From: Candidatus Sumerlaeota bacterium
Lineage (GTDB): Bacteria > CG03 > SLGR01
Length of the DNA stretch: 18,075 bases
Direction: 5' to 3'
NCBI GenBank assembly: GCA_007136585.1
Contig: SLGR01000058.1
Span: 1 to 18,075 of the forward strand
Part shown: one piece after another, positions 1 to 18,000 of the stretch
Numbering within the stretch: position 1 is the first letter of the stretch
Layout: every line of letters starts with the position of its first letter
The notes under the pieces: model-generated
The model's database searches: none
Seen by the model: only the letters and a program-made list of their open reading frames with translations
What the model was told of the DNA's origin: nothing
Position numbers and translations under genes: made by a program

Positions 1-3000
1 AACGTCCTTGCTGTTCTTCTTAGCGGGCCCGAGACAGATAGAAAGATACTGACTCCTGAAGAGGTTGCGGAGAAAGGGTATTCGGGTATGGTGGATGAAC
101 TTCTTAAATCACGCGGTATTGACCGTGTTGAGGTAAGCAGGCAGGATCCGGAAGTAGTCTTTGCAGGCGAGGATGCCTACGTTCTTTCCACGATAAGGAT
201 AGATGAGGATGGAAACAGGGTTCTTATGGTGCACGAGCTTTTCCTTGATGAGCTTATAGAACAGGCTAAAGAGGGGCGCTCGCCTCCCGAAGAGAGAAAA
301 GAGCTCGCATACCTTACCCGCCACGAGCAGATAGATTTTGATGCTCTTAACCGGAAAGACTCACCCGTATATCAGGCCTTTTCCGAGTACCTGGAGAAGA
401 AGGGACTGGATCCCGCAGCCCGCGATCATTCGGCTTTTCACAGTTTTCTTCTTGAACACGAACCTTTTAAGGAAACCCATACCCGAGAATATATTCAACT
501 TCTTAAGATAAAGAGCGATATATGGAACAGACTTGAAGCGGACCCGTACCCGGAAGAGATAACAGATATAGAAGAGTTCATAAGAAGTGAAATAGTCGAT
601 CTTTCCCTTAGGGTAAGCACCCGGGAGCTGGGAGAGGGCTTCTTAACCGATAATGACGTTTTTACTCTGGCCGGGGTTGAAACAGATGCGTCTACCGGAG
701 CCGAGACCCTGGTTATACACGAGCTTCTGATTAATACATTAAGGGGCCGGGCTCCTCCTGAGATAAGGTCTTTCACACAGCTTCTTCTTACGGACCGGGA
801 AGCGGCGCTCTCCCAGTATAAGAACGAGATAAAAGCAGAGAAACTTAGAGCCCAGCTTACCGCTTTCATAGAAAATTCCCTGATGAAAGAAGGAGCCGAC
901 CGGGAGGTCAGGGAACAGATACTCTCAGAAGCTATGGCAGCGGTAAACAGGATAGTGGAAAAGGTAAGTCAGGGAAGAATAGACCCGTCCGCGGAACTGA
1001 GGCTTTCATCGGCGGAATCAGAGAAAGAGATAAAATCCTCGGGGCAGCCGGTAAGGGCCGGGATGCTGGCGATGGCAGCCAACCCCATAACCTGGGGTCA
1101 TATAGTAGCGGCCCTTAACGCCATTGCCGAAGATGACTTAAGCCAGGTGGTCTTTGTTGTTTCGGGACCGGATGAACGGAAACCTGTACTTGGAAGCACT
1201 ATGGAAGAACGGCGTGAGATGGCAAGAGATTTCCTTCCGGGGTTCGGCGGTTTATTTGCCTACTCAGACATTTCCATGGAGGATCCGGCTGACGGCGAGA
1301 CCCAGATATGGAAACTTATGGAACTTAACCGGGATGTGGAACTGGTAAAGGCCTACCTTGTGGGAGACGACCACCAGCATGTGATAAGTCCGAAGAAAGC
1401 GAATGAAGCAGCCGCGGCCACCGGGCGGGAGGAACTGGAGCTGGAGGATATATTCAACCTTGAGTACTCACTGCTTGATACTATCGGAAAGCTTTACCGG
1501 ATGAGAAGGGAAAAAGCCTCCATCCTGGGTCCGGGGCAGGAAGTGGAGATAATTTTTATGGGTCGGGAACTTGGGCAGCCCCTTGCCCTGGAGAAGAAGG
1601 TTTATGACGAGATAGAGAAAGAGGGGTTTTTCAGCACCCTGGCCCCGCTGGGATTTGATGCCTCATCCACAAAGATAAGGAACGCGCTCCTGGGGATAGG
1701 GCCTGAGAGCGACCTTACCCTGCTCCCTGTGCCTCTACGGAAAAAGATAGAGAGCTACGACGAGTACCTGTACCACCTGGTTATAGACGAGGTCAACAGG
1801 TTTGCCGCTGAGCCGGTGGAACTTACCGATTCGCTCAGGAAACTTACGCCCAAAGAGCTCCTGCAGAAGGCGGAAGCCCTGAGAGACTCCGGTGAGAGAG
1901 TAACCCCCGGAAATATAACAGCCGATGAGATCACTGAGGAACCCCGGGTTAATGTAATAGAATCCGGAGATTTCACCGAGGGACTCCTGGAAGAATCCGG
2001 TAAGGAGATAGGTCAGCTTGAAGAAGTTTTAAAAGACCTCAACCTTGCAGGAGAGAGAGAAAGTGTGATTCAGTATGAAGAGATCCACGGCTGGAGAAGG
2101 ATTGGGGCAGAGACCTACGGGGCCATCGCGGAGATCCTCGTAGAGGATGAGGCCGGAAGAAGATATACCAGAAGGTTCATAGCCAAGGCCATAGTCAAGA
2201 TGGAACCGGGGAGAGTCGCCCGGGACTGGCTTGAACGTATGAGGTTCCTGGAGGATCTGGGGATAAAAACGCCCCGTATATACAACGATCACGAGCATGC
2301 TGTCCGTAAAGCGACTTTTTATCAGGAATGGCTTGAGTACGATGCTGACGAGGCGCTCAGAAACGCCGAAGACCGGCAGGCATACCGCTTTCTGGTAAGT
2401 GAACTGGCAAAAATAGCCGCTGCTTTGGATGCGGCCGGGTTTGCCCCCCGTGATTTCATAAGGGACCTGCGCAGCGACGGAGAGTCATTTTATTATACAG
2501 ATGTCGGGGAGGACCTTGGTGTTCCCGCGGAAGCTCCGGGCGAGCGGGCTAAAAACCAGCTCCTTGCAAGGTTCAGCGGCGAGGATATGGAATACGCCGC
2601 GCGTGAATACAACGCCGCCCTGGAAACTTTAACCCGGCCAGTTGCGGAGCCTGAACCTGAGCCTGAAATAGATAAAGAGTCTCTTGAAAGCGTTAAGGAC
2701 AGCATAGAGTACAGCGGGAAAAAATGGGCTTCGGTTGTTGATACATATTATAAGGGAGGAAAAACCGACCCTCACGTCAATTTTCGTAATAGAAGGGAAA
2801 ACCTCAATACGGTAGAGAGTCTCATCAGCTGGCTTAAGGAAATGAAGAATGACCTGGCGGAGATAAGAACTGAAGACAGGAGCAGGCTGCAGACGAGAAA
2901 TATGATGAGAGCCTTTGACGCTGTAATAAACGAATACACAGAAATAACAGAGAAGCTAATGGCTGTGAGAGACGGAAGGATGGATATTTCAGAGATTTAC

Positions 3001-6000
3001 GCAGATGAGTTTTCCGCTCTCTCATTTAAAACCGTTACTTCAGACGGGGTAATAACTGTTTCAACAGAGGATTACAGAGGACATTTCTTTTCTCTTAAAA
3101 TAAACCCCCTTAGCGGTGAAATAAGTATCTACGCCTATGATACAGAGATAGGCATAGACACTCCGGATTATATATTAAGAGAATTAATCAGGGCCGTACT
3201 TGAGAGCGCTGATCCGGAGCTCTCAGAGGTTCTTGAAAATAACCCGCAGGCCGGGAGATTTCTGGAAGATCAGCTGGTTTCTGAGGAAGCTGTCATTAAA
3301 AGAGCGGTTGTTTCCCGGGACGATTTACGGGAGGACGTGGATCCCGTATCCGAAGAAGACGCTGTGGTTATTGAAGAGACTCCTGAGCCGGTCACTCCTG
3401 AAATAAAGGAAGAGCCCGCTCCGGCCGTTACACCGGATGATACCGAAGGTATCAGGGAAATTCTTGATGATTTTATAAATAACGAATCCTTACGGGAGAA
3501 GGTCTACGAGTTCGCGGTAAGGTACCGAATCTTTCTCGGAATGAGCACCGAAGAAATTGTGGAGGCGTTAGGCCTTGTCTCCTCCGCCCTTGAGATTATT
3601 CAGGCTGAAGGGCATATTGCTGCTGATCCGGTAAAGGCCGCTATCATTGAAGCCTACCTGGAGAGGATCAGCGAGAACCCGGAGGCGCTTGAAACCGACA
3701 CAAAGGAAAAAATAGCGGAAAGTCTTAGGGGTTCCGTAAAAGAACTTATCGCCGCTTCTGACAAGGCCCCCCTGCTTGAGAGGGCTTCTGACAGGGTTTT
3801 CAGGGTATACCAGGACGCCCTTTCAAGGATTTACTCTCAGATCACAAATAACGTGACCTGGGGGTCGGATATAAGGCTTAACCTTATAAACGTATTAGCC
3901 GAAGTAAAGAGAAACATCAACAGGGTCACCTCCCGTAATTTCAGGTTCAGGAGGCTCCGCAGGAGGTATGACAGGCTTGTGGCGCGCAGAAACACCCTCG
4001 CGGGTGAAGCGGGTAAACTCCAGACTCCCGAGAGCAAACAGGCGCTGGCAGATATAAGTTTCAGAATATCGGTTCTGGAAAAGGCTATGCTTGAGGTTCA
4101 GCTTGAGGTACAGAGAAACCTTATAGAGAGGCTTAAGACCGTTGTAAGAACCGAAATGGCGGAGGAGGCCGATGCGGGAAGGGTAGAGGTGCTGGAGCGG
4201 GTTATCCGGGTTATAGAGACCGATACAGAGAAGAGGGTGCCTGCTTCCGACGGCAGCGAGATTGTAATCCCCAGAAAGCTCCCCGAAGGCCTGGTTGATA
4301 CTTCCCGTTCCATCATATACCGCTGGTCCCTGAGAATACTCCCAATGGGGTTTGCCGCCCTCTTTGCCTTTATTACGAACAACTTTCATCTTGCCGTTTC
4401 CATTCCGCTCTTTTTCCTGACTTACAGGGTGCTGGAGCCGCCTGTAAGAAACATCCTTATACTCATAGCCAGGATATTTATGAAAGATGACCATTATCCC
4501 TCAGTCGATAACTTGGAGAGGGCCATAAATATGAAGCGGATGCAGGGGGGTGTTTATAGGATGGGTATAGTTATGCCCAAATTCGCAGACAGTAAGGGAG
4601 TAGCCGACACCCCGTTCCATTACCAGATTATAAACCTCAAGAACCTCCAGCATACCATTGAAAAGTTCGGGACCGAGCATTTCCTTCCGTTTCTTATGGT
4701 TGTTTCCAATTCAATACCCAATAAACTTATAAAGGATTTTGCCGGGGTTCTGGATGAAAAGATTAAAAACGACAAGGAGAACCGGCTCGGTCTTAAAGAA
4801 AACAGAGAGCTTCTTACGGAGCTTTATAATGAGAAACATTCCGCCTACACCAGGAATAAATCAGAGCTTTTTGAGTTTTTCAGAGAGGCTGGATTTATGG
4901 AACGCGGCGCGGACGAGTACTACTGCCAGGTAAGGGCCCGGGTTCTTTTAAACGAAAGGGGCGGGTATAATGATACGTTTTTCCGCGAGCTCCGGGAGAA
5001 GTTCGGAATAAAACTTACAGATGGAGAGAAAGAGGGTATAAAGAGGATAGTAAGGGCGTACACGGAAGATTTTGAAAGTATTGTATCAAGGTTTCCGGAG
5101 AGCTCCCGCTCCGCAGCAGAGAGTCTCCTGGAAATTACTGAGCTTGACGAGGCCAGGGAGAATATACAGGAAGCTCTTCCCCAGCTCAAGAAGGTCCTTT
5201 CTGATATGGGATACACGGAAGAACTCATTGAGAAGAACCTGGAAGAGGTGCGGGCCCGGGAGCGTCTCAGGGAGATTGAGGAAAAATATATTGATAACCC
5301 GCAGGAACACCTGGGGACGGAGCTGACCCTGCCTTACTATGAGATAATGAGGACAGAGATGCTCCAGATTTTTGCGGATGCGATGTACGGAGAGAACGCT
5401 GTTCCCTGCCTCTACCTTCCCCACCAGAGCGCGCATTACGAAAAGGCCGGTCTTTATGAGGATTTAACCTCCGGCAAGGTTGTTCTTGAGCAGGATATAT
5501 CTGAGCGGGGCTGGAGAATGGGCCGGGTTGAGAGAGACAGCAGCGGAAAGGTCATAAAACGCGGAGATCCGGTTGAGAAGCTACACGTGGTTTATGATGC
5601 CGAAGCCCTTGAGACGGTCGAAAGGATAAAACAGCTTCAGTCGGACCTTGAGACGGCGGATGAGAACCGCCGGGCGGAGCTCAATGAGATTATATCCGGA
5701 CTCCTGCAGGAGATAGAAGAGCATAAACTCAACGAGCTTGTAAAACCCGCCGATTCACCAAACGCCTATAAGAGGAAACCGGGCGGATTTTTCAAGAAAG
5801 TCGGAAACGTTTTTGTTTTTATCCAGTTCATGTCCCGGGGTCGCACCTTTCCCGAAATATACACAGATTATACCACGGAGGGTTTGAACCACGTTTCGGA
5901 TCCGGGCACTTCCATGCTTTACCACGATCAATACGGCGCCCTTATCTCCGGCGACTTTGAGAAGGTCCTGGGGATTGAGTTTACAGGAAGTGACCTGGCC

Positions 6001-9000
6001 CGCCCCGAGGGTATTAACCTTCCCGATGAGAACGTGGTTGATAAGGTCACGCTTCTTGATGATAAGAATAATATACTTCCGGGCTCTGTTGAGGCGGGGC
6101 TGAATTACCTTGAGGACGACCGTCACCAGTATACTGTAATGGGCGGGCCGATGATAAGCGTGACCGAGCCGGCCTCTATCGCTACGGGGGATCCCATAAG
6201 TTCTCCCGGGCTTATTACCGATATATATTCCAGGATAGTTCATAACCTCTGGACCTCCTCTACGGAGTCCTGGCTTTTCAACCGCGCCTCTGCAGCGTTC
6301 GGGAAATGGATGCATGACCAGCGCGCCTACAACGCCAAGCACGAAGAGGAGCTTTTCCCGCCGGACAGGTCTGCCAGCCATGACTGGCAGGAGTCTTTCT
6401 TCTTCTGGTGCGAGGCTGTTTTCGGGGTGGATTCCAGGGTTTCCCGCCTGACCGGAAGGATACTCGGAAGAAGAGGCAGGTACAGGGTCTCGACGCTTGA
6501 ACTCACCGAGGACCAGGAGATACTGGAGTTCAAGCGCGGGCGCGAGGTTCTCATGTTCAGGGTTACCTATGACAGGGAACTTGAAGACTCAAGAAAACAG
6601 ACGGTATTGGAAAGACTCAACTCCCATACGGGAGAGTACGAGTTTGAAAGAACCTTTACCGGGATATCAGGTATGAGCAGAAGTGAGCAGGTAAAATACA
6701 TCTCCGGGTTTTACGACGGTGTATTTGAGGTGGGCGAGCGGGACCTGCTTACGGTTATACAGAAGATGATACGCAGCATCCGCTGGTACCTGGGCGATAA
6801 CCAGATGATATCAATGGTAGGCAACCTGATAAAATCCCTCATAGGTCCGGTCTCCCGCCCGGTTAATTATATTCTCAGCCGGACAGGGTTCGGAAAAAGG
6901 ATGCAGGATGCCGGACTCTGGCTGGGAGAGGGGTATATTGATAGAATGGCCCCCGCTGCCAGAGACCATTACCAGAAGCTGAGCTGGAGGCTGTGGGGAG
7001 AGGTCATTTTCGGGGCTTTTCTGATCTCATCCATGATAACGGTTGTGGTGCCGACCCTGGGCGGGGTTGTATATCCGGCGCTTATGATAGCCCAGTTTGC
7101 TTTTGTCGCTGTAGGTATAATAGGCATAGGCCAGTTTATAGCCCCTATATGGTACGAGTTTCAGCAGGCCTCAAGGGTCCTGAGAGACGGGGAAAGGATA
7201 TCCCCTGTAAGAGCAGCGGGGATTATTGTAAGGATGATAGGCGCGGGCCTGGGAAGGGTTTATACCAGCACAATGGTTGCTCTGGCAAATATAGTAATAA
7301 TTCCCTCCGCGTTTTTCTCAAAGGGGGGGATATACCATTCAATATTAAACCATATTCCTTTTGACTGGTTTGCCTCAAGTATGGGAGCTATAGCCGAACA
7401 GCGCGGGATCCCCTTTGAAGAGTACCGGAAGACATACGCTACGGCCCGGACCGTGGGAGTTACCATCCTGTCATGGTTTGCCGTATGTATCGCCCAGGGG
7501 CTAATGCCTTTTACGATTGTAAGCGCTTTGGGTATGGGGGTTATAGTTCTCAGCCTTACCACCGCCTCCTACTATGCCTGGAGATCCGGGCTTCCTACTC
7601 ATATGAGGGCTAAGATGAGCAGTTTTAAGGAGGCCTTGAGGGAGAGGGGCGGGGCCATGTTTATGCTCAGCCTTGTGCTCTTTTCCACCGTATTTCCGGT
7701 AATGTCGGATGTCATAAACGCGGGTGCTGCCATCTTAAACGAGATACTCCCCTGGGAGATCCGGACCCAGGAACAGATTGAGAGAGAGGCTCAGCTTCAG
7801 TGGGCCGAGGACGAGGTGGCGGCGCAGGCCCTGAGCCAGCTCGACGGGGAAGCCGTGAAGATACTTCTTACCCTTCAGGCCATGCAGGATTTCTCGGAGG
7901 AGAGAGATGTTGAGCTTAAGGAACTCTTTGAGGCTTTTGAAGAGGAGCTCAGAGTTTCAGGGGAGATAAACGACAGGGTAATAGAACTTATAAGCCGTGC
8001 GGAACCCGATAAGCAGTGGGAAAATGTGACAGATGCCGCCCAGGAAAATCTTTTTACCCTGGCCCATTATGAGAGAGTAGGGGAATCCATAGGGTGGGGA
8101 GATGAAAGGGGTCCCAACGCCTATGCCCATTTTGTTAATTTCTTCAAGGATAAGATCGGGATTGACGATTTTTTCAAAAGAACGCCGGTTGAGAGGATGC
8201 TTAATGAGCATAATATACGCACAGACGGAAGGTACTCGGGCAATCTTTCCTACTATCTTGCCGTAATTGACGCCTATATAGATAACGAGGTAGGCGGGTA
8301 TACCGATTTCAGTTCGGGAGAGTTCGGGCTCAGGGGACCCGAGCATCTTGTAAATGAGATAGAAGATACTTTCGGCATTACTCTTGAGGGGGACGGGGTT
8401 GAGGCGTTAAATAAACTTCTGACCGACAGGGATTTTTACAGGGTATGGGACCGGTGGCACTCTGATGAGAAGGTTAGCGTATTTATGACAAGCAGCGACA
8501 GGGAGGAATTGGAGCAGCTTCGTACCGTTACGAATTATATAAGGTTGGGCAAGGATGTTTCAGAACTTACCCCCCAGGAAGAGGAGCTCCTTAAACAGCT
8601 TAACAGGTTCCTCCTGGAAAATACTTTTCCCATAACTGTCTGCCCGAGGAACCGGGGGGATGCCTATGATGCCGCTTTTGAGAAAGCGCTCTCCTGGGTG
8701 GAGAAGCAGATAGTATACGAGAAATGGGTTGCCGAGGCTATGGGTGTGGATATAAACAGGGGTGAGATAACCTTTGAGGACAGGCGCGAGGAGTTTGAGC
8801 GTAAACGCCGGGAGCTTTACGACCAGACCAGACTCAGCGCCGCCGATGAGGACCAGCGGAGAGCTATTGAGAGAGAAATCTTCTTCAGGGATATCGAAGA
8901 GGAAAGAGAGTTCAGAAGAGAGCAGGAGGAGCTGGAACTTATCATAGGAGAGGTTTCCTCCCAGGCAACGTATTTCAGGTCTCTCGGGTACGACAGGGAT

Positions 9001-12000
9001 CAGATAATCTCATTTTTTAATTCTATGTACAGGCTCAAGAGCAACCCTGACGTTCAGTCGTGGCTCTCCAGGGTTCCCGCGGATGAGCACGAGGGGCTGC
9101 TGACATTCCTTGTTCACTGGCAGAACGCCCAGGCACAGGAGCGGGGGCTTACCTCCGAAGAGAGCGACCGGTGGATGGATAAGTGGCTGCATATACATGA
9201 GAAACTTATTTCAGATCCCGAAAGCTGGTATAACCAGCAGCACGCAAACCTTGAGCCTGAGGAGGCTGAAGGGTTTCTCGGGTCATATATAACCCTTCAG
9301 GTGGCTGTTATGGACCAGAGGGGTTGGGACCTTGAGACCGGGGACAGGTACATGGAACTCCTGGGAGAGAAACTCAGTCAGCTTGAAAACCATGAGTACA
9401 TAACATCCATAGAAGATACTGGAGAGAGGGAAGGAATGCTTCTTTATGCCGCGCAGTTCTGGATGGAGCATACCAACTGGCAGAACCTTGATGACTGGAG
9501 AGGGGCCCAGTGGAGTTACCAGGATGCAGATAACTGGCTTTACTTTCATATGGTTATTGAAAATAACGACTGGGTACTGGATGCCCTGGAAAATATTGAG
9601 CTTTCCGAAAGCGAGAAAGAGGCCGGTATTTCGCTTGAAGATAAAAAGAAGGGTTTTATCGGGGCCCAGGTAAACCTCGCGCTTAACCTTATGCTCACCT
9701 ACTCAAGCGACGAGGCCTATAGTGAGCTCTCAAACGAGGAACTGCGCGGCGTTGTAGAGAATAGACTTAACGATATTTTCGGCGCCATGGAAAGGCTTGA
9801 GGAGAGCAGGGCTTTTAATGATTACATAGAGGTTGAAGCCCGTCAGACCATGGAAATGCAGATTATGCTGAAGGTCCTTGAGAGAGGCGATGATCTGACT
9901 CCTGCGGAGATGGAGGAGATAAGGGCTGAAGTTGAAGCTTCCTTTGACGGGTTTGAGTTCAGGAACGCCAACCTCACGTATTTCGCCCTTTACCAGGATA
10001 TAATGGGTTTTACTGATAGTGAGCTTGAAAATTACCTTGATTTTTATGTCACCATATCCCGGAACCCGGCTGTAGAGACCTGGGTGAATGAGGTTGTAAG
10101 GGAAGCCGCCGCTGAGAACCTGCACGAGGCGGAGATTGACGGTCAGAGAAAGGGTTTTATAAGTTCCATAGTTTTCCAGGGTATGGCTCTTACCGATTCC
10201 CGCGGTTTTACCGCGGAAGAGGCGATGGAGTTTCTTGAAAAATGGATAGATACCAAGAAGGTTATCCTTGAGAATGAAGGGTTCGGTGCTATCCTTTCAG
10301 AGTATGACCGGGATTTACAGGAAGGTATTACGGGGTTTCTCGCCACTTATATTGTAGACCTTGAGATCACTCCCGAAGATACTTCCAGGCTTCTTGGAAA
10401 CCTGGTTATGGCCGCCGAGGCTTCGGAAGATACCCTGGACAGGGTCCTTTCATTTAATGAGCTTTTCTATTTTGCCAAGGAAATAACCAACCGGGCCGGA
10501 GGCGATCTGGCTACCAGGTTTCAGCTTGACAGGGAGTTCCGCCAGTTCAGCATAAACAGGGAAACCCAGGTCCTGAGCCTGGTAAGGGAGTTTTACGATA
10601 TAATAGGCGAAACTATACCGGAAGGTGATCCCGACGGGATACTTGAGCGCTACGAGCGAGAGGTCAGGCACGGGGCCACCGCGCAGGAGGTTCTTCAGAT
10701 GCTCCTTAAGGAGTTTCCCGGGTTCTACGATATGCAGGCGGAGAACTTTCTTGCGCAGAATTTCAGGGGAATGGAGCAGATGGTAAGCCGTGATACAGGC
10801 CTCCCCTATGACCGGGCTCTGCTTGCTGAGGACGGGACTGTGGCTGAAAATTATGAGCCTTCTTCTACCTCAAATATGGCTGTTTACCTGGGTTCAATAG
10901 TGACAATGCGCGACCAGGGGATAATAACCGGGGAGCATGCCAGGAATATCATAGGGCATACCCTCTGGTCAATGAGTAATCTTGAGACGACCGAGGACGG
11001 GCAGCTTTACAACTGGTACAGCGCCCGGACAGGAGATCCGATCCCTGTGCACGGAAAAATGGGTCTGGATGAGGACGGTGTTCCGGTAAGTATCACTCAG
11101 GGTTATTTTGTATCCTCGGTAGATAACGGAAACCTCATTATGGCCCTTGAGGGCGTCAGGGAAGCCTACTCTGAGGATGAAGAGATCGTTGAGCTTGTCG
11201 GAGAAATCCTTGAGCCGATGAAAGAAGGTTTCAGGGGGGCGTTCTATGACGAGGGTTACGGCGCTCTCCGCCTGGGGTACACCGTAACTGAGACCGATGC
11301 CGGTGAGTTCAGGTACGTTTCGCCCTATCATTACTCTGATCTTGGAAGCGAAGCCCGCGCTCCCATAGCGGTTCTGGAGGCTATGGGATACCTCCCGGCG
11401 GGGAGTTTTTCCTCTCTTACCTCGGAGCCGGTCACCGTAAATGTCGCAGGAGAAGAAGTTACACTCTTTAAGACGCACGACGGAGGGGTTTTTCAGTACC
11501 TTATGCCTGAGATATTCCTTGGAGAGAGAGCGCTTTCGGATGAATTCCGTGTAAACCACGAGAACCTTGCAGCTTTCATGATAGACCGGGGAGACGGCGC
11601 GCTTCCTGCCGCTTACTCGGCATCTTCCGCACCTGACGGCTCTTATATAGGAAATGCGGGGTTCAGGGAACTGGGTTCAAGAACCGATACTGAGGTAATA
11701 GAAGGTATCCTTACCCCCCATGCTATTTACCTTATGGGCGCGGTTGCCCCGGAGGCTGCGGAGACGGCTCTAAGCAACCTGCGCCGCGAACATCCGGAGC
11801 TTTTTCACGCTGGTTCGGGTTTTGCCGATTCAATTGATTTAAGCACAGGCGAGAAATCCGGAAGCATACTTATGCTCAACCACGGGATGAGCGCTATGGC
11901 CTCGGGCGATTTCTCCAGGTACGTGAGGGCTGCGGCAGGGGAAGAGGCTCTGAGGGATATATACTCTGCTCATCCCGGTTCCTCCGAGTTCGGAGCATCC

Positions 12001-15000
12001 GCGGTATCCGAGATGCCGGCCCTTGAGAGGTTTGATGAAACTACGGAGGGCGAGATAGAAATCCTCTCAGAGATAGATGCGGAGATATCCGATATTGAGC
12101 AGAGGATAGAAAGACTCGGTCCCGAGACTGGAGAGTATCTCTGGGGGCTGAGGGACCGGATTGAGGATCTCAGGGAGGAGAAAAGGGCCGTAATCAGCAG
12201 AGTTGACGCCCTCCATGATAACGCTGCTGTTATTGACAGGAATATAAGGGAGAGCCAGGTTGAGGCGTCAAAGAAGATGGCCGTGATGGCTCTGGGGGTA
12301 ATTGTTTTAGCCGTAGGCTACTCAAATATAAGCAGGCGGGTCAGAGACCGGATGGATGAGAGGCGTAAACGGGCAAAGGAGAGAAGACGCAGGGCCAGGG
12401 AGAAGCTTAAACCGCATACACCGGAGCAGCTGGTAGAATCTTTCAATAAACAGATCAAGGCTCCTGCCGCCGAGTTTAGATTTGACGGTTCGGTAAACCA
12501 GCCGGTGCTCCCGGACCTTCTGGCCAGGCTGGCAGAGGCCTACAGCGCCACCGAGCCGGGAGCCATAAGTTACTCAGTCTTTCACAACCCTGAAACCGCC
12601 TGGGGGATAAGGGCCGTCGACGAAAGCAATATTGAGATAAACCTTGCCTATTACAATAACCTCTCCGCTGAATCCGACAGGAAAAACTTCGCCTCTGACG
12701 CCGCCCAGGTGCTCGGCGGGTTAAAGTCGGTTGCCGAAGGCAGGGAGCCGGCTCCGTCATTCAGCCGGTACCTGGATAAACTCAGGGAAGTTTTTACCGA
12801 CCGGGAGGTCAGGGATATTACAAGGCTTTATGAACAGATAAACTCATACCGGGATGAGTTCCACGGAATGAGCCCGGAAGAGATCATCCGGCGCCACAGA
12901 AGCCTGAGAAGGCGCGTAACAGAAGATGGTGAGGAGTTAAGCCGGGTCCTTCCGGAAGCCTATGCCCTTATAAGGGAGCTTTTATTCAGGACGACTGGTG
13001 AGCGGCTGTATGATGTTCAGCTGGTGGCGGCCGTGGCCCTTGCCTACGCTCCGGAAAATATGAAAGGCACCGTTGCCGAGATGCTTACGGGTGAGGGAAA
13101 GACCCTTTCAGCGATAGCGGTGCTTTACCTTAACGCCCTGGCCGGAAAAGGGGCCTATATGGTGACTGCAAACCGCTACCTTGCCGAACGTGATGCCGCA
13201 GCCGCGGCAGAGGTTCTCTCACTGCTCGGAATGAGCGTTGGGGCTTTAGGCGAAACCCCGATGGATGCCAGGGTATCTGCAGAAGACGGGTCTCTCATAA
13301 GTTCCAGCCGCAAGGGCGCCTACGCTGCCGATATAACTTACGGGACACTCAGCGATTTTGCTTTCGATTATATGCGCGACCGCTCGGCCGAACCCTTTGC
13401 CAGGGTGCAGCGGGAAGACCCGTTTCCTTTTACAGTGGTTGATGAAGCCGATTCAATAATGATAGACGAGGCCTCCACCCCGTTTGTTATATCCAGGGAA
13501 GGGCGCGAAGCTCTTGAATTCCATCTGGCCCTGACTGAGATACTTGAAGCCGCCGATCTTGAAGACGGTGTGGATATTGAAGTGGACCACCGGCAGCGTA
13601 CCGTGAACCTTACCGATTCCGGGTATGACAGGATAGAGGAACTTCTTGCCGGAAGAGGGATACTCGCGGAAGGGGAGGGGATGATGGATTCCGAAGATTC
13701 CGAACTTATTCTCTACGCCCTTGACGCGGCCCTTCAGGCCCGGTTCCTCTTCAACAGGGGTATAGATTATATAGTTGAAAATAACGAGGTTATCCTGGTT
13801 GACCGCGAGACCCAGCGCCAGATGCCCGGAAGGAGACTTTCAAACGGTATACATCAGGCGATAGAGGCTCTGGAGGGCGTGGAAGTCCGGCCTGAGAGCC
13901 TGACGGCGGCCCGGATGACGATTCCCCATTACCTGGGAAAATTCAGTCGTCTGGCAGGTATAACGGGAACGGTCCGGAGCGCTTACGGGGAGTTTGAAGA
14001 GGTTTACGGGCTCTCGGTCAAGTTTATACCCGAGAGGATACCTTCCGTACGGGTGGACCAGCCCCCAGTTTACTACAGCACCCGGGAGCGGGCCTGGGAG
14101 GGGCTTTCCGGAACTATAAGCGATATGAGGGAAAAAGGGAGGCCTGTACTTATAATAGCCCACTCCATAAACGAGGCCGATGAGATAAGCGGGGCCCTCC
14201 GGGAAGCAGGTATAGAGCACAGGAAACTTACCGCTGAGAACGTATCGGAAGAGGCCGATATAATAGAATCCGCCGGAGTAAGCGGCGCCGTTACAGTAGC
14301 CACGGATATGGCCGGCAGGGGAACGGATATAAAAATAGATACTGAGGTTGAGAGGCGCGGGGGTCTGCATGTGGAGATAATGGGTGAATCCGCCACGGCC
14401 GGACGCGTAACCGCGCAGGCCAGAGGAAGGGCCGCAAGGCAGGGCCAGGCCGGTTCTTCCAGGGTTGTTATAACCGGCGAGGATGACCTTATAAGGGAAC
14501 ACGCCGACGGGAGGCTCAGGCGGGCTCTTGAGGAACTTGAGTCCGGCGCGGAACTCCCCGGGGATATTTATGAACGGATACTTGAACTTCAGCGCAGGGT
14601 GGAGTCAAACGCTGCCGAGACCCGCAAAGAATCAATGAAGTTTGATACCCCCGCGCAGGAGCTTGCGGATTCCCTCTATGAAAGGATATCCGGAATATAC
14701 GGGGCAACCGCTTCCGATTATATGGAGCTTCTTCTCAGATACGCCGATGAGGCGGTAGAAGAGATAGTAATAAGAACCTCATACGAATCTCAGCAGGAGT
14801 TTGAGGAAAAGATGGTAAACACCTTTGGTCCGGTTATATTAAGCGGTATCAGCCTCAGGCCCGGGAGACGGGATACGGCGGATGCGGTAAGGGAAAGGCT
14901 TAAGGACGCGCTCCGGAAATGGGGGGAATCGGGGCTTCAGGGAATGAACAGAAGGGTCTTCCAGACGGTGTTTTCCTCCCGCCTGGAAGAGGCTGTAAGC

Positions 15001-18000
15001 GTTCTGATGGAGGAAGCCGATACCCTGAAACTGAACGCTATCTCCAGGGCCCGGATAGAGCAGAAAAATCCGGAGGATATATACAGAAAGGAACTGGCTC
15101 GGTTTCATCAGGATCTTTTCAGAACAGTATATGAAGGGGCATTTTCGGAACTTACAGGAGAAAGGGGCGGAGTCTCAGCCGTATACCGGAAACCTACAGT
15201 AAGAGAACCGGAAGAAAGAGTTGAGGAGAGACCCGTCGAAGAACCCGCTGTGGATGCGGCCCCTTACCTAAGGGAAGTTGCCCGGAGTAAGCTGGGGCCG
15301 GCTCTCCAGGAACGTATAACTCCCGAGAATTTCACTCAGGCTCTTCGCAGGGCATCAGACGAACTTACCCCGGCTCAGTATGAAGACGGCACCGGTGACG
15401 AGGTTGTCTTTGAGCTCCTTATTGAGGCCCTCCGCGGTTCCTCTTCAAGAGTATCCAGGTATAGCACACGCACTCTCATGGACCGAATAGCGGTCCTCAG
15501 GGGCGCCGGGATAGAACTTTCGGTAACGAACCTTACACAGCCGGGGAGGTTTTACGGGGATGTTGAAGCAATAAGTTCAAGGCTATCTCCGGAAATGGCC
15601 CGGGTGTTTTTTGAAAATTCCAAATACTTTGCCCGTAACCCCGGTAAATTAGGTGTTCGTAACACTCGCGCTCATTTCTTAAACCGGGCCCCCAAGGTGA
15701 TGGAGGTTATAGAGGTTCTGCAGAGCGCGACAGGTATCCCCGATACCCGTAAGTACGAGCTTCTTAAGATATACCTCCGAGAGGATTATATGACTCCGCG
15801 CAAATTAAGAATACCCGCCGATATAAGGGATATAGCCCCCCGCGAACTGAAAAGATACCTTGTAACCCACGAACTTGAAGGAATAAGAAAAGAAACCGGT
15901 AAAGTTTTTAGAGAGTTTGCGCTTCCGGAACCGGCAGAAGAAGTTCCGGCTGAAGTGACGGTCTCTGAACCTGAGAAACCCGTTTACAGCCGGGAGCTCC
16001 AGACTTCGGAAGAACGTTTCGGAACAAAGCGTTACAGCCGGCTCCTGCTTAGCCCATCGGACCTCATCGGCCGGGAAGAGTTTGATAAGTACGGCACGGT
16101 AACAGGCGTATTCAACCAGGGTGTTGTTGAAGATAAAATGGTTTACCGGGTCTGGTATGAAGATGATAACAGAACCTCCGTAATAGGTGTGGCTGATATT
16201 GAGTACGAGAGCCGCTCGGGTGAGTACCGCGTAAGAAAGGATACCTTAAGGCCGCTTATCAGCCCTGAAGATGCCGTAGATTACGGGTACGAATCAATAG
16301 CCTCCGAGGACCCCCGCCTTACAAAGATAGATGATTACTACGTTATTTCCTACACCGAGGTGGTGGTGGATGAGGACGGGAGCTCATACGCCGTCCCCGC
16401 GTCCGCTCTTACGAAAGATTTTAGGACCATAGAACACAGGGGTCTCATAGCCTCGGACAGGTTCAGGGATTACTCCCATAAGGACGGCATCCTCCAGCAG
16501 CTTCCTGACGGGCGCATAGTTCTTATTCACAGGGTTAAGCCGGATATACAGGTCTTTGAGGTGGGGCGTTCCGTAGAAGATATTATCAGGCTGATAGAAG
16601 ACAGGGAATACCGGACCGCTGTATGGGAAGGTTACGAACTTGAGAATAATATAATAATCAGGGCCTCGGAAGATGAGTGGTACGGAGGCGGGGCTCCACT
16701 CGTAGAAGTAAAAGGTATGGAGGATATTAAATACCTCTTTACCGTTCACAGGGCTTTTTACGTTGTTGAGGACGGAGAAAGGGTAAGAAGGTACGTTGGG
16801 GAGATATCCGGCCTGGATGCGGATCTTAAGGTTGTTGCCGAGCCGCAGGTATTCATAACCCCGAGGATGGATTATGAGAAAGCGGAGAGCGCCACAGGGC
16901 GGGCCAGGGAGGTTTTTGAGGAGATAGGGCTCCTGGACCTTGAGAATACCTTCCCCGAGGGAGCTATTATAAGAGACGGGGTTCTTCATATCTTTTACGG
17001 GGCCGGGGATCTTCACTGCGCCGCGGCTACTGTACCCCTGGACAGGATAAGCGAACTCTTCGGGCGGGAATTGATGCCTGTCGCAGAGACCGTTTACGGG
17101 ACAACTGAAATAAATCAGTGGTCCGGAGGCCAGGATCTTACCCCTGCCGAGACAAGGTACCTTCAGGTACTTCTTAAGAGTATGCCGGCAGATGAGAGGT
17201 CCGCTCTTATGGATGAGGGGTTTGCTTCCAGGATAGCTCCCAAGATGGGAGCGGCCTCAGATGCTGTCGGAGCTGACGAAGCGCCTGAGTTAAGCGATAA
17301 TATTTACGCCAAACTGGGGGTAATGGATATTCTCAGCCGGGATAAGGATCTTCTGGGAAGGACGCTCAGGGTCCTTGCCTCATACGAGAGTGCCCGGGAA
17401 GCTTATGATATCTCCTCGTACAGCGATGAAGATACCCTTGAGGGATTTTCCCGTATCTACCGGGAAAACCTGGGTGATATTGACGTGATTGAGGGTGCGG
17501 CCATACAGGTATTCTTTAACGAGGTGCTTCTTACACCGCGTATGGGTTACACCCAGCCCGCCCTCAGGAAGACCCTTGAGCATATAATGGGAAGCAGGAG
17601 TTACGGGTACAGGCAGATACCCGAAGAGTTCCGTTCCCTTATAATAGATAAGGCCATCGGAATAAATGAAGAGTTCCAGGGCGAGGCCCGTATAATCCGT
17701 ACTGTCACCGGCACAGGATTCATTCAGGTTACAGATGAGATAGGCATAACCGGCCCTGTTTCCGGGATCAGGCATCTTATAAACGCTATACTTGGTATAG
17801 GCTCCGCGGCCGTCCTTCCGATCGTTCCGGTGGTCAGGCCCGGGGATAGCGGGATGGAAGGTATCCTTAACTCTATGTTCCTTAGAACAGGCGACGGTTT
17901 TATAGTTCTTCGGGAGAGGATACGCGCCATCCTGGGCGGGCGTGTTTCAAGCGGTATGATGCCGGATATAAACCAGGCCGCCTACATACTCTACTCCAAT

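Follow-up and report, generated by a model that had tools for sequence, protein, structure and literature searches.

A giant open reading frame of a Candidatus Sumerlaeota bacterium combines GT84-like, glycoamylase-like, SecA and GH130-like domains

The stretch of DNA considered here (18,075 nucleotides; hereafter the window) is contig SLGR01000058.1 of an uncultured Candidatus Sumerlaeota bacterium (GCA_007136585.1, a 1.88 Mb assembly in 257 contigs, where it is labelled C226), and it carries a single giant open reading frame (ORF) whose features are collected in Table 1. It begins at base 1, ends with the TAA stop at 18001-18003 and comprises 6,000 codons with no stop inside. As the N-terminus lies beyond the contig edge, 6,000 amino acids is a lower bound on the length of the protein, which with its 5' end still open already exceeds the 5,000 amino acids used to define giant proteins. 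The G+C content by codon position follows the same pattern from one end of the ORF to the other, so that neither a chance ORF nor a join with a shifted frame is likely. A first-pass annotation, made from the sequence alone, had placed four domain types (GT84-like, glycoamylase-like, SecA and GH130-like) in one uninterrupted frame, and this holds, the frame being open and periodic throughout; the interval that it gave (4561-17070) is indeed coding but too short, as the true open frame spans 1-18003. To judge from the sequence, the protein keeps the motifs that the chemistry of GT84, of the SGL clan, of the SecA ATPase and of GH130 would require. In what follows, G000 denotes the genome of the window, G001 a genome of the same family, and G003 and G004 genomes of the same order.

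The SecA module was matched in Pfam by PF07517 (E 3e-74), P-loop_SecA (5e-35), PP_bind (4e-23) and SecA_SW (1e-7), and also by a hidden Markov model (HMM) of 13 canonical SecAs, positions 9-503 and 540-818 of which were covered. The NBD1, PPXD, NBD2 and scaffold regions are present, and the Walker A, DEAD-type Walker B, motif V and arginine-finger regions are intact. This giant SecA is at most 36% identical to the canonical SecAs compared, and the genome has a SecA of its own in a separate frame of 953 amino acids. Derivation by a recent copying of the genome's own secA was considered and rejected, as the giant SecA falls outside the SecA clade of the phylum on a very long branch, its exact placement in the tree not being trustworthy. 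Strongly diverged SecA domains were also observed inside ORFs of 6,999 (G137:C22) and 13,300 (G102:C42) amino acids from other phyla, where the canonical-SecA HMM scored 56-59 bits, in contrast to 434 bits for the main stretch of the window module. Most full-length giant genes are reported, in a 2023 giant-gene preprint, to contain divergent SecA DEAD domains.

The glycoamylase-like domain belongs by its matches to the SGL clan. Although PF10091 alone remained below its threshold (24 bits against a cut-off of 27), phmmer searches with this domain retrieved EeSGL1 (8xuj, 6e-16), TiCGS (8wy1, 7e-7) and NdvB/Cgs (8rf0 and 8rf9, 5e-4), and the GH189 part of a cyclic glucan synthase (CGS) HMM matched it at 9e-9. 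The domain is thus nearer to EeSGL1 of family GH192 than to TiCGS. EeSGL1 is a Group 1 (GH192) beta-1,2-glucanase in which the roles of the residues have been established (PMC12102758), and E3784 of the window protein aligns with its general-acid glutamate (ESR). No Pfam match to GH94 was found anywhere in the 6,000 amino acids, although the same library detects this family at 5e-68 in a giant ORF of the same order.

For the GT84-like region, neither Pfam nor a PDB profile search with an alignment of GT84-like sequences gave a family match. However, when this alignment, comprising the region of the window and its counterparts in the giant ORFs on G001:C41, G004:C169 and MGVE01000017.1, was compared by hhalign with a canonical profile of about 23 synthase GT84 domains, a collinear match with a probability of 73-91% was obtained (79% with the window sequence first and up to 91% with that of G004 first), whereas reversed and column-shuffled controls did not exceed 0.8%. 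With the best query the match starts at the KRG motif; it extends through LDxD, FGKG and SHD, and the RW motif aligns in a separate and weaker segment, in the correct order. The DDKN, SHDWQES and RWxxGDxQM motifs are invariant in the four giant ORFs, which come from four genomes, and the window reads FGKW where the others have FGKG. Catalytic roles have been assigned to D624, D739 and R773 of the Agrobacterium Cgs (PMC10901819), to which, in our reading of the alignment, motifs of the GT84-like core would correspond. By its sequence profile, and not by structure, the core is a distant relative of GT84. GT84-like relatives are filed at NCBI under the name Elusimicrobia bacterium (T1Sed10_83R1, CSSed10_371m and RIFOXYA2_FULL_47_53), and the first two of these names agree with the naming of metagenome-assembled genomes from soda-lake sediment.

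The GH130-like domain was matched by PF04041 with 27.5 bits, just above the cut-off of 26, and its matches in the PDB are beta-1,2-mannoside phosphorylases, namely the beta-1,2-mannobiose phosphorylase 7fip (5e-5) and 9fj8 (4e-4). In a sequence-level alignment with 7fip, weak in overall score, the catalytic EDPR and phosphate-binding HR motifs of the two proteins coincide. The domain calls of the first-pass annotation are therefore upheld, that of GT84 as a distant relative (by the hhalign match and the kept motifs), that of a glycoamylase-like domain by the SGL-clan matches and the kept glutamate, that of a nearly complete SecA by its coverage and intact ATPase motifs, and that of GH130 at the sequence level; its observation that no GH94 is visible agrees with the Pfam scan.

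Two further parts of the ORF, a NadD-like domain and a C-terminal module, had been overlooked. Copies of the latter number 11 in G000, 11 in G001 and two in G004, and it was not found in the other 58 genomes searched. Most of the copies end otherwise unrelated large ORFs, the domains upstream including M28 peptidase, VWA, pyruvate kinase, HD and CAAX-peptidase-like domains. The AlphaFold model of this module is helical, with a predicted local distance difference test (pLDDT) score of mostly 74-92 at residues 11-200 and of 65 overall, and neither Foldseek nor VIA-align gave a convincing match for it, though a new fold does not follow from this. It is possible that the module serves as a sorting, anchoring or assembly tag.

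Large ORFs of related genomes show similarly varied compositions. Within G000, one ORF (C123) joins a pyruvate kinase barrel to cation-efflux domains, and another (C115) joins PPDK, methyltransferase and metallophosphatase domains. An open frame of 9,931 amino acids in G003 (C42) contains HD, topoisomerase IB with HhH motifs, a DNA gyrase C-terminal propeller and an SNF2-like helicase. Joins such as PPDK with methyltransferase, pyruvate kinase with cation efflux, and topoisomerase IB with gyrase indicate that the lineage fuses unrelated domains widely. Another contig of G003 (C25) bears two adjoining giant ORFs of 11,860 and 13,409 amino acids, the first of which carries GT1, GH189-like and both GH94 domains, so that pieces of cyclic glucan synthases recur in giant proteins of the order. 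The window protein is thus not a lone oddity but belongs to a class of giant mosaic proteins found across the lineage.

The N-terminal modules also recur: residues 1-132 and 201-380 were found by blastp in giant ORFs on G004:C169 (twice), on C41, C142 and C136 of G001, and on G000:C93, while residues 2767-2892, within the long linker, recur in G003:C42 and G001:C127. The NadD-like domain was matched by NCBIfam PRK00071 (E 9.5e-4) and by NadD in the PDB (E 0.23), and the NPITWGH, GDDHxH and DASSTxIR motifs are present. A paralogue of this domain, 61% identical, lies on contig C24 of the same genome. Because contigs C93 and C24 share 34 identical overlapping residues, they probably represent one paralogous gene, on which the C-terminal module closely succeeds the NadD-like domain, whereas in the window ORF 5,000 residues separate the two; this differing spacing suggests that modules have been shuffled between ORFs. 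In several paralogues (G000:C93+C24, C85 and C254), the NadD-like domain, or only its trailing repeat, was observed upstream of the C-terminal module. The ratio of nonsynonymous to synonymous substitutions (dN/dS) between paralogous NadD-like, N-terminal and C-terminal modules is 0.11-0.25, with dS near saturation in some pairs and a pair of low dS (0.27) giving 0.11, and by this measure the modules evolve under purifying selection.

Table 1. Features of the giant ORF in window coordinates (aa, amino acid positions in the ORF)
Feature	Position	Strand	Evidence
Single ORF, at least 6,000 aa; 5' end off contig, stop TAA 18001-18003	1..18003	+	Codon-position G+C uniform
N-terminal modules	1..1041	+	blastp
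NadD-like nucleotidyltransferase-superfamily domain, aa 348-639	1042..1917	+	NCBIfam PRK00071, motifs
First predicted membrane segment, near aa 1454, 5' of GT84-like domain	4360..4416	+	Hydropathy
GT84-like core	6037..6819	+	hhalign to GT84 profile, motifs
GT84-like motif LLDDKNN	6052-6072	+	
GT84-like motif FGKWM	6298-6312	+	
GT84-like motif SHDWQES	6376-6396	+	
GT84-like motif RWxxGDxQM	6781-6807	+	
About six predicted membrane helices, clustered 3' of GT84-like core, aa 2335-2572	7003..7716	+	Hydropathy
Linker of about 960 aa, no family match	7798..10680	+	Pfam, blastp
SGL-clan (alpha/alpha)6-barrel-like domain, glycoamylase-like	10792..11964	+	phmmer, CGS HMM
GSEARAP motif with putative general-acid Glu3784	11344-11364	+	
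Single predicted membrane helix (aa 4087-4105), then strongly basic stretch RRVRDRMDERRKRAKERRRRAREK (aa 4112-4135)	12259..12405	+	Hydropathy, charge
SecA module	12769..15153	+	Pfam, canonical-SecA HMM, motifs
SecA MLTGEGKT	13081-13104	+	
SecA DEADSIMIDEA	13441-13473	+	
SecA PPXD	~13552-13866	+	
SecA TDMAGRGTDI	14302-14331	+	
SecA RGRAARQG	14422-14445	+	
Short module common to window ORF and PPDK-bearing giant ORF C115 of same genome	15456..15912	+	38% identity, E 2e-24
GH130-like phosphorylase domain	16102..17049	+	PF04041, PDB matches
GH130-like motif SEDPRLT	16303-16323	+	
GH130-like motif HRVKPDI	16528-16548	+	
GH130-like motif IFYGAGD	16990-17010	+	
C-terminal module, about 300 aa	17113..18000	+	Alignments with copies in related ORFs

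Based upon hydropathy and charge, with the positive-inside rule applied to the basic stretch that follows the single helix upstream of the SecA module, the GT84-like, SecA and GH130-like domains are predicted to lie on the inner side of the membrane, and the SGL-clan domain, which falls between the last helix of the cluster and this single helix, on the outer side. The SGL matches are beta-1,2-glucan enzymes and the GH130 matches beta-1,2-mannoside phosphorylases, which points to a common beta-1,2 theme. Tentatively, and with a probability of roughly one in three, we consider the job of this protein to be the building and trimming of a glycan of the cell envelope, probably with beta-1,2 linkages. 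The GT84-like part would polymerise the glycan and extrude it by way of the membrane helices that belong to it; on the outside, the SGL-like domain would cut or transfer it; and the inner GH130-like domain, taking the place of GH94, would shorten the chains with cytosolic phosphate. The SecA part would most likely use ATP to drive the large portion of this protein that lies outside, or that of sibling giants, across the membrane, this being the least supported step.

Several observations weigh against such a role. The GT84 match is at the level of profiles only, with the SHD and RW motifs set apart by a long insertion, the AlphaFold2 model of the region from four sequences has a mean pLDDT of 34, and the GH130 match is weak. 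In the SecA module, the zinc motif that is usual at the C-terminus is missing and the two-helix finger has diverged strongly. The topology is based upon hydropathy and charge only, and the dN/dS values pertain to the NadD-like, N-terminal and C-terminal modules and not to the GT84, SGL, SecA or GH130 enzymes. Further, the exact GT84-SGL-SecA-GH130 set was not found in any other genome searched, and, as further giants encoded in this genome and its order combine domains without a shared pathway, the set may not be an assembly line. The first-pass annotation had proposed one megasynthase with an ATP motor, which is a possible reading of this sequence. The domains on which it relied hold, with their motifs kept, and the GH189-like and GH94 domains in a giant ORF of the same order strengthen the case for a cyclic-glucan-synthase-like core; what calls for caution is the fusion of unrelated domains in this lineage and the occurrence of SecA in giant ORFs of other phyla as well. 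The most far-reaching reading, viz. a new kind of membrane machine in which a CGS-like enzyme has had its GH94 length control swapped for a GH130 beta-1,2-mannoside phosphorylase and possesses its own working SecA, with synthesis, trimming and ATP-driven movement coupled, appears distinctly unlikely.

Among the alternatives to glycan synthesis, a doubtful but possible one is that the ORF encodes a giant surface or secreted protein that contacts or attacks other cells, its carbohydrate domains acting on foreign polysaccharide, SecA aiding the export of so long a polypeptide and the C-terminal module serving as a sorting or anchoring tag. Giant ORFs, frequent in Omnitrophota and reported from Elusimicrobia and CG03 too, have been read as tools of predation or adhesion (PMC10066038, PMC12057145), the C-terminal module is common to many different large ORFs, and M28 and M23 peptidase, VWA and LysM domains occur in sibling or related ORFs; however, the GT84-like, NadD-like and SecA motifs are typical of cytosolic enzymes that need UDP-sugar or ATP, and no adhesin domain was found in the window ORF, the N-terminal part of which is off the contig. 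An unlikely alternative is that these giants are polyproteins fused without a shared pathway, perhaps released later by proteolysis, so that the neighbourhood of the GT84, SGL, SecA and GH130 domains is accidental and each works alone. The mixture of PPDK, methyltransferase, pyruvate kinase, cation-efflux, topoisomerase IB, gyrase C-terminal and helicase domains among siblings and relatives of this ORF and the apparent shuffling of modules (C93+C24 against the window) would accord with this, but glycan domains cluster in the window ORF and in G003:C25, and the order of GT84, membrane helices, SGL and phosphorylase mirrors that of a cyclic glucan synthase.

That the ORF is a decaying or non-functional fusion, whose remnant domains keep their motifs by chance, we regard as highly improbable: the very long SecA branch, the diverged SecA finger and the weak GT84 and GH130 scores would fit it, but a frame of 18 kb uninterrupted by a stop, its even codon periodicity, the dN/dS values of the paralogous modules and the preservation of catalytic motifs in each of the four domains do not. 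Least probable, and very unlikely indeed, is an assembly chimera joining unrelated genes in frame, which the fragmented assembly and a contig beginning inside the ORF might suggest, but every junction is without a frame break, independent assemblies contain giant ORFs with modules known from several places along this one, and the SecA part differs from the secA of this genome and of a close relative.

In the accessible literature, no description was found of this domain set, of a motif-intact SecA within it or of the C-terminal module; the class of giant mosaic proteins is itself known but poorly understood. The present results indicate that the giant proteins of this lineage hold recognisable glycan-synthesis modules and a nearly complete SecA, and not just unannotated sequence. 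They make testable both the role of giant bacterial proteins and the reason why SecA-type domains occur inside them, and the C-terminal module provides a handle by which the whole class may be found and tagged within one genome.

Of the known systems, the canonical Cgs is a single membrane protein that contains GT84, a cyclase and a phosphorylase of family GH94, and in Agrobacterium every soluble domain of it is inside (PMC10901819). Like the cyclic glucan synthases (GT84, GH189 and GH94; 8rf0, 8rf9), the window protein has in one chain a GT84-related core by a helix cluster, then an SGL-clan domain and then a phosphorylase. In contrast to them, its GT84 is recognised by profile only, a linker of about 960 amino acids precedes the SGL domain, this domain is nearer to GH192 than to GH189 and is predicted outside rather than inside, SecA and a GH130-like domain replace GH94, and the chain is at least twice as long. 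The module shares its NBD1, PPXD, NBD2, scaffold and ATPase motifs with the SecA/SecA2 preprotein translocases, but it sits in a giant chain, lacks the zinc motif, has a diverged finger and is at most 36% identical to the canonical SecAs compared. The GH130 beta-1,2-mannoside phosphorylases (7fip, 9fj8) have EDPR, HRxxPDI and YGAxD in the same order as the window domain, which differs in its weak score and its fusion into a giant membrane protein. Lastly, giant ORFs are established in Omnitrophota and have been reported from Elusimicrobia and CG03 (PMC10066038; PMC12057145, which cites the preprint 10.1101/2023.11.21.568195); the window protein resembles these in its very large ORF, membrane helices and carbohydrate domains, whereas its SecA is far nearer to the canonical protein, with the motifs kept.

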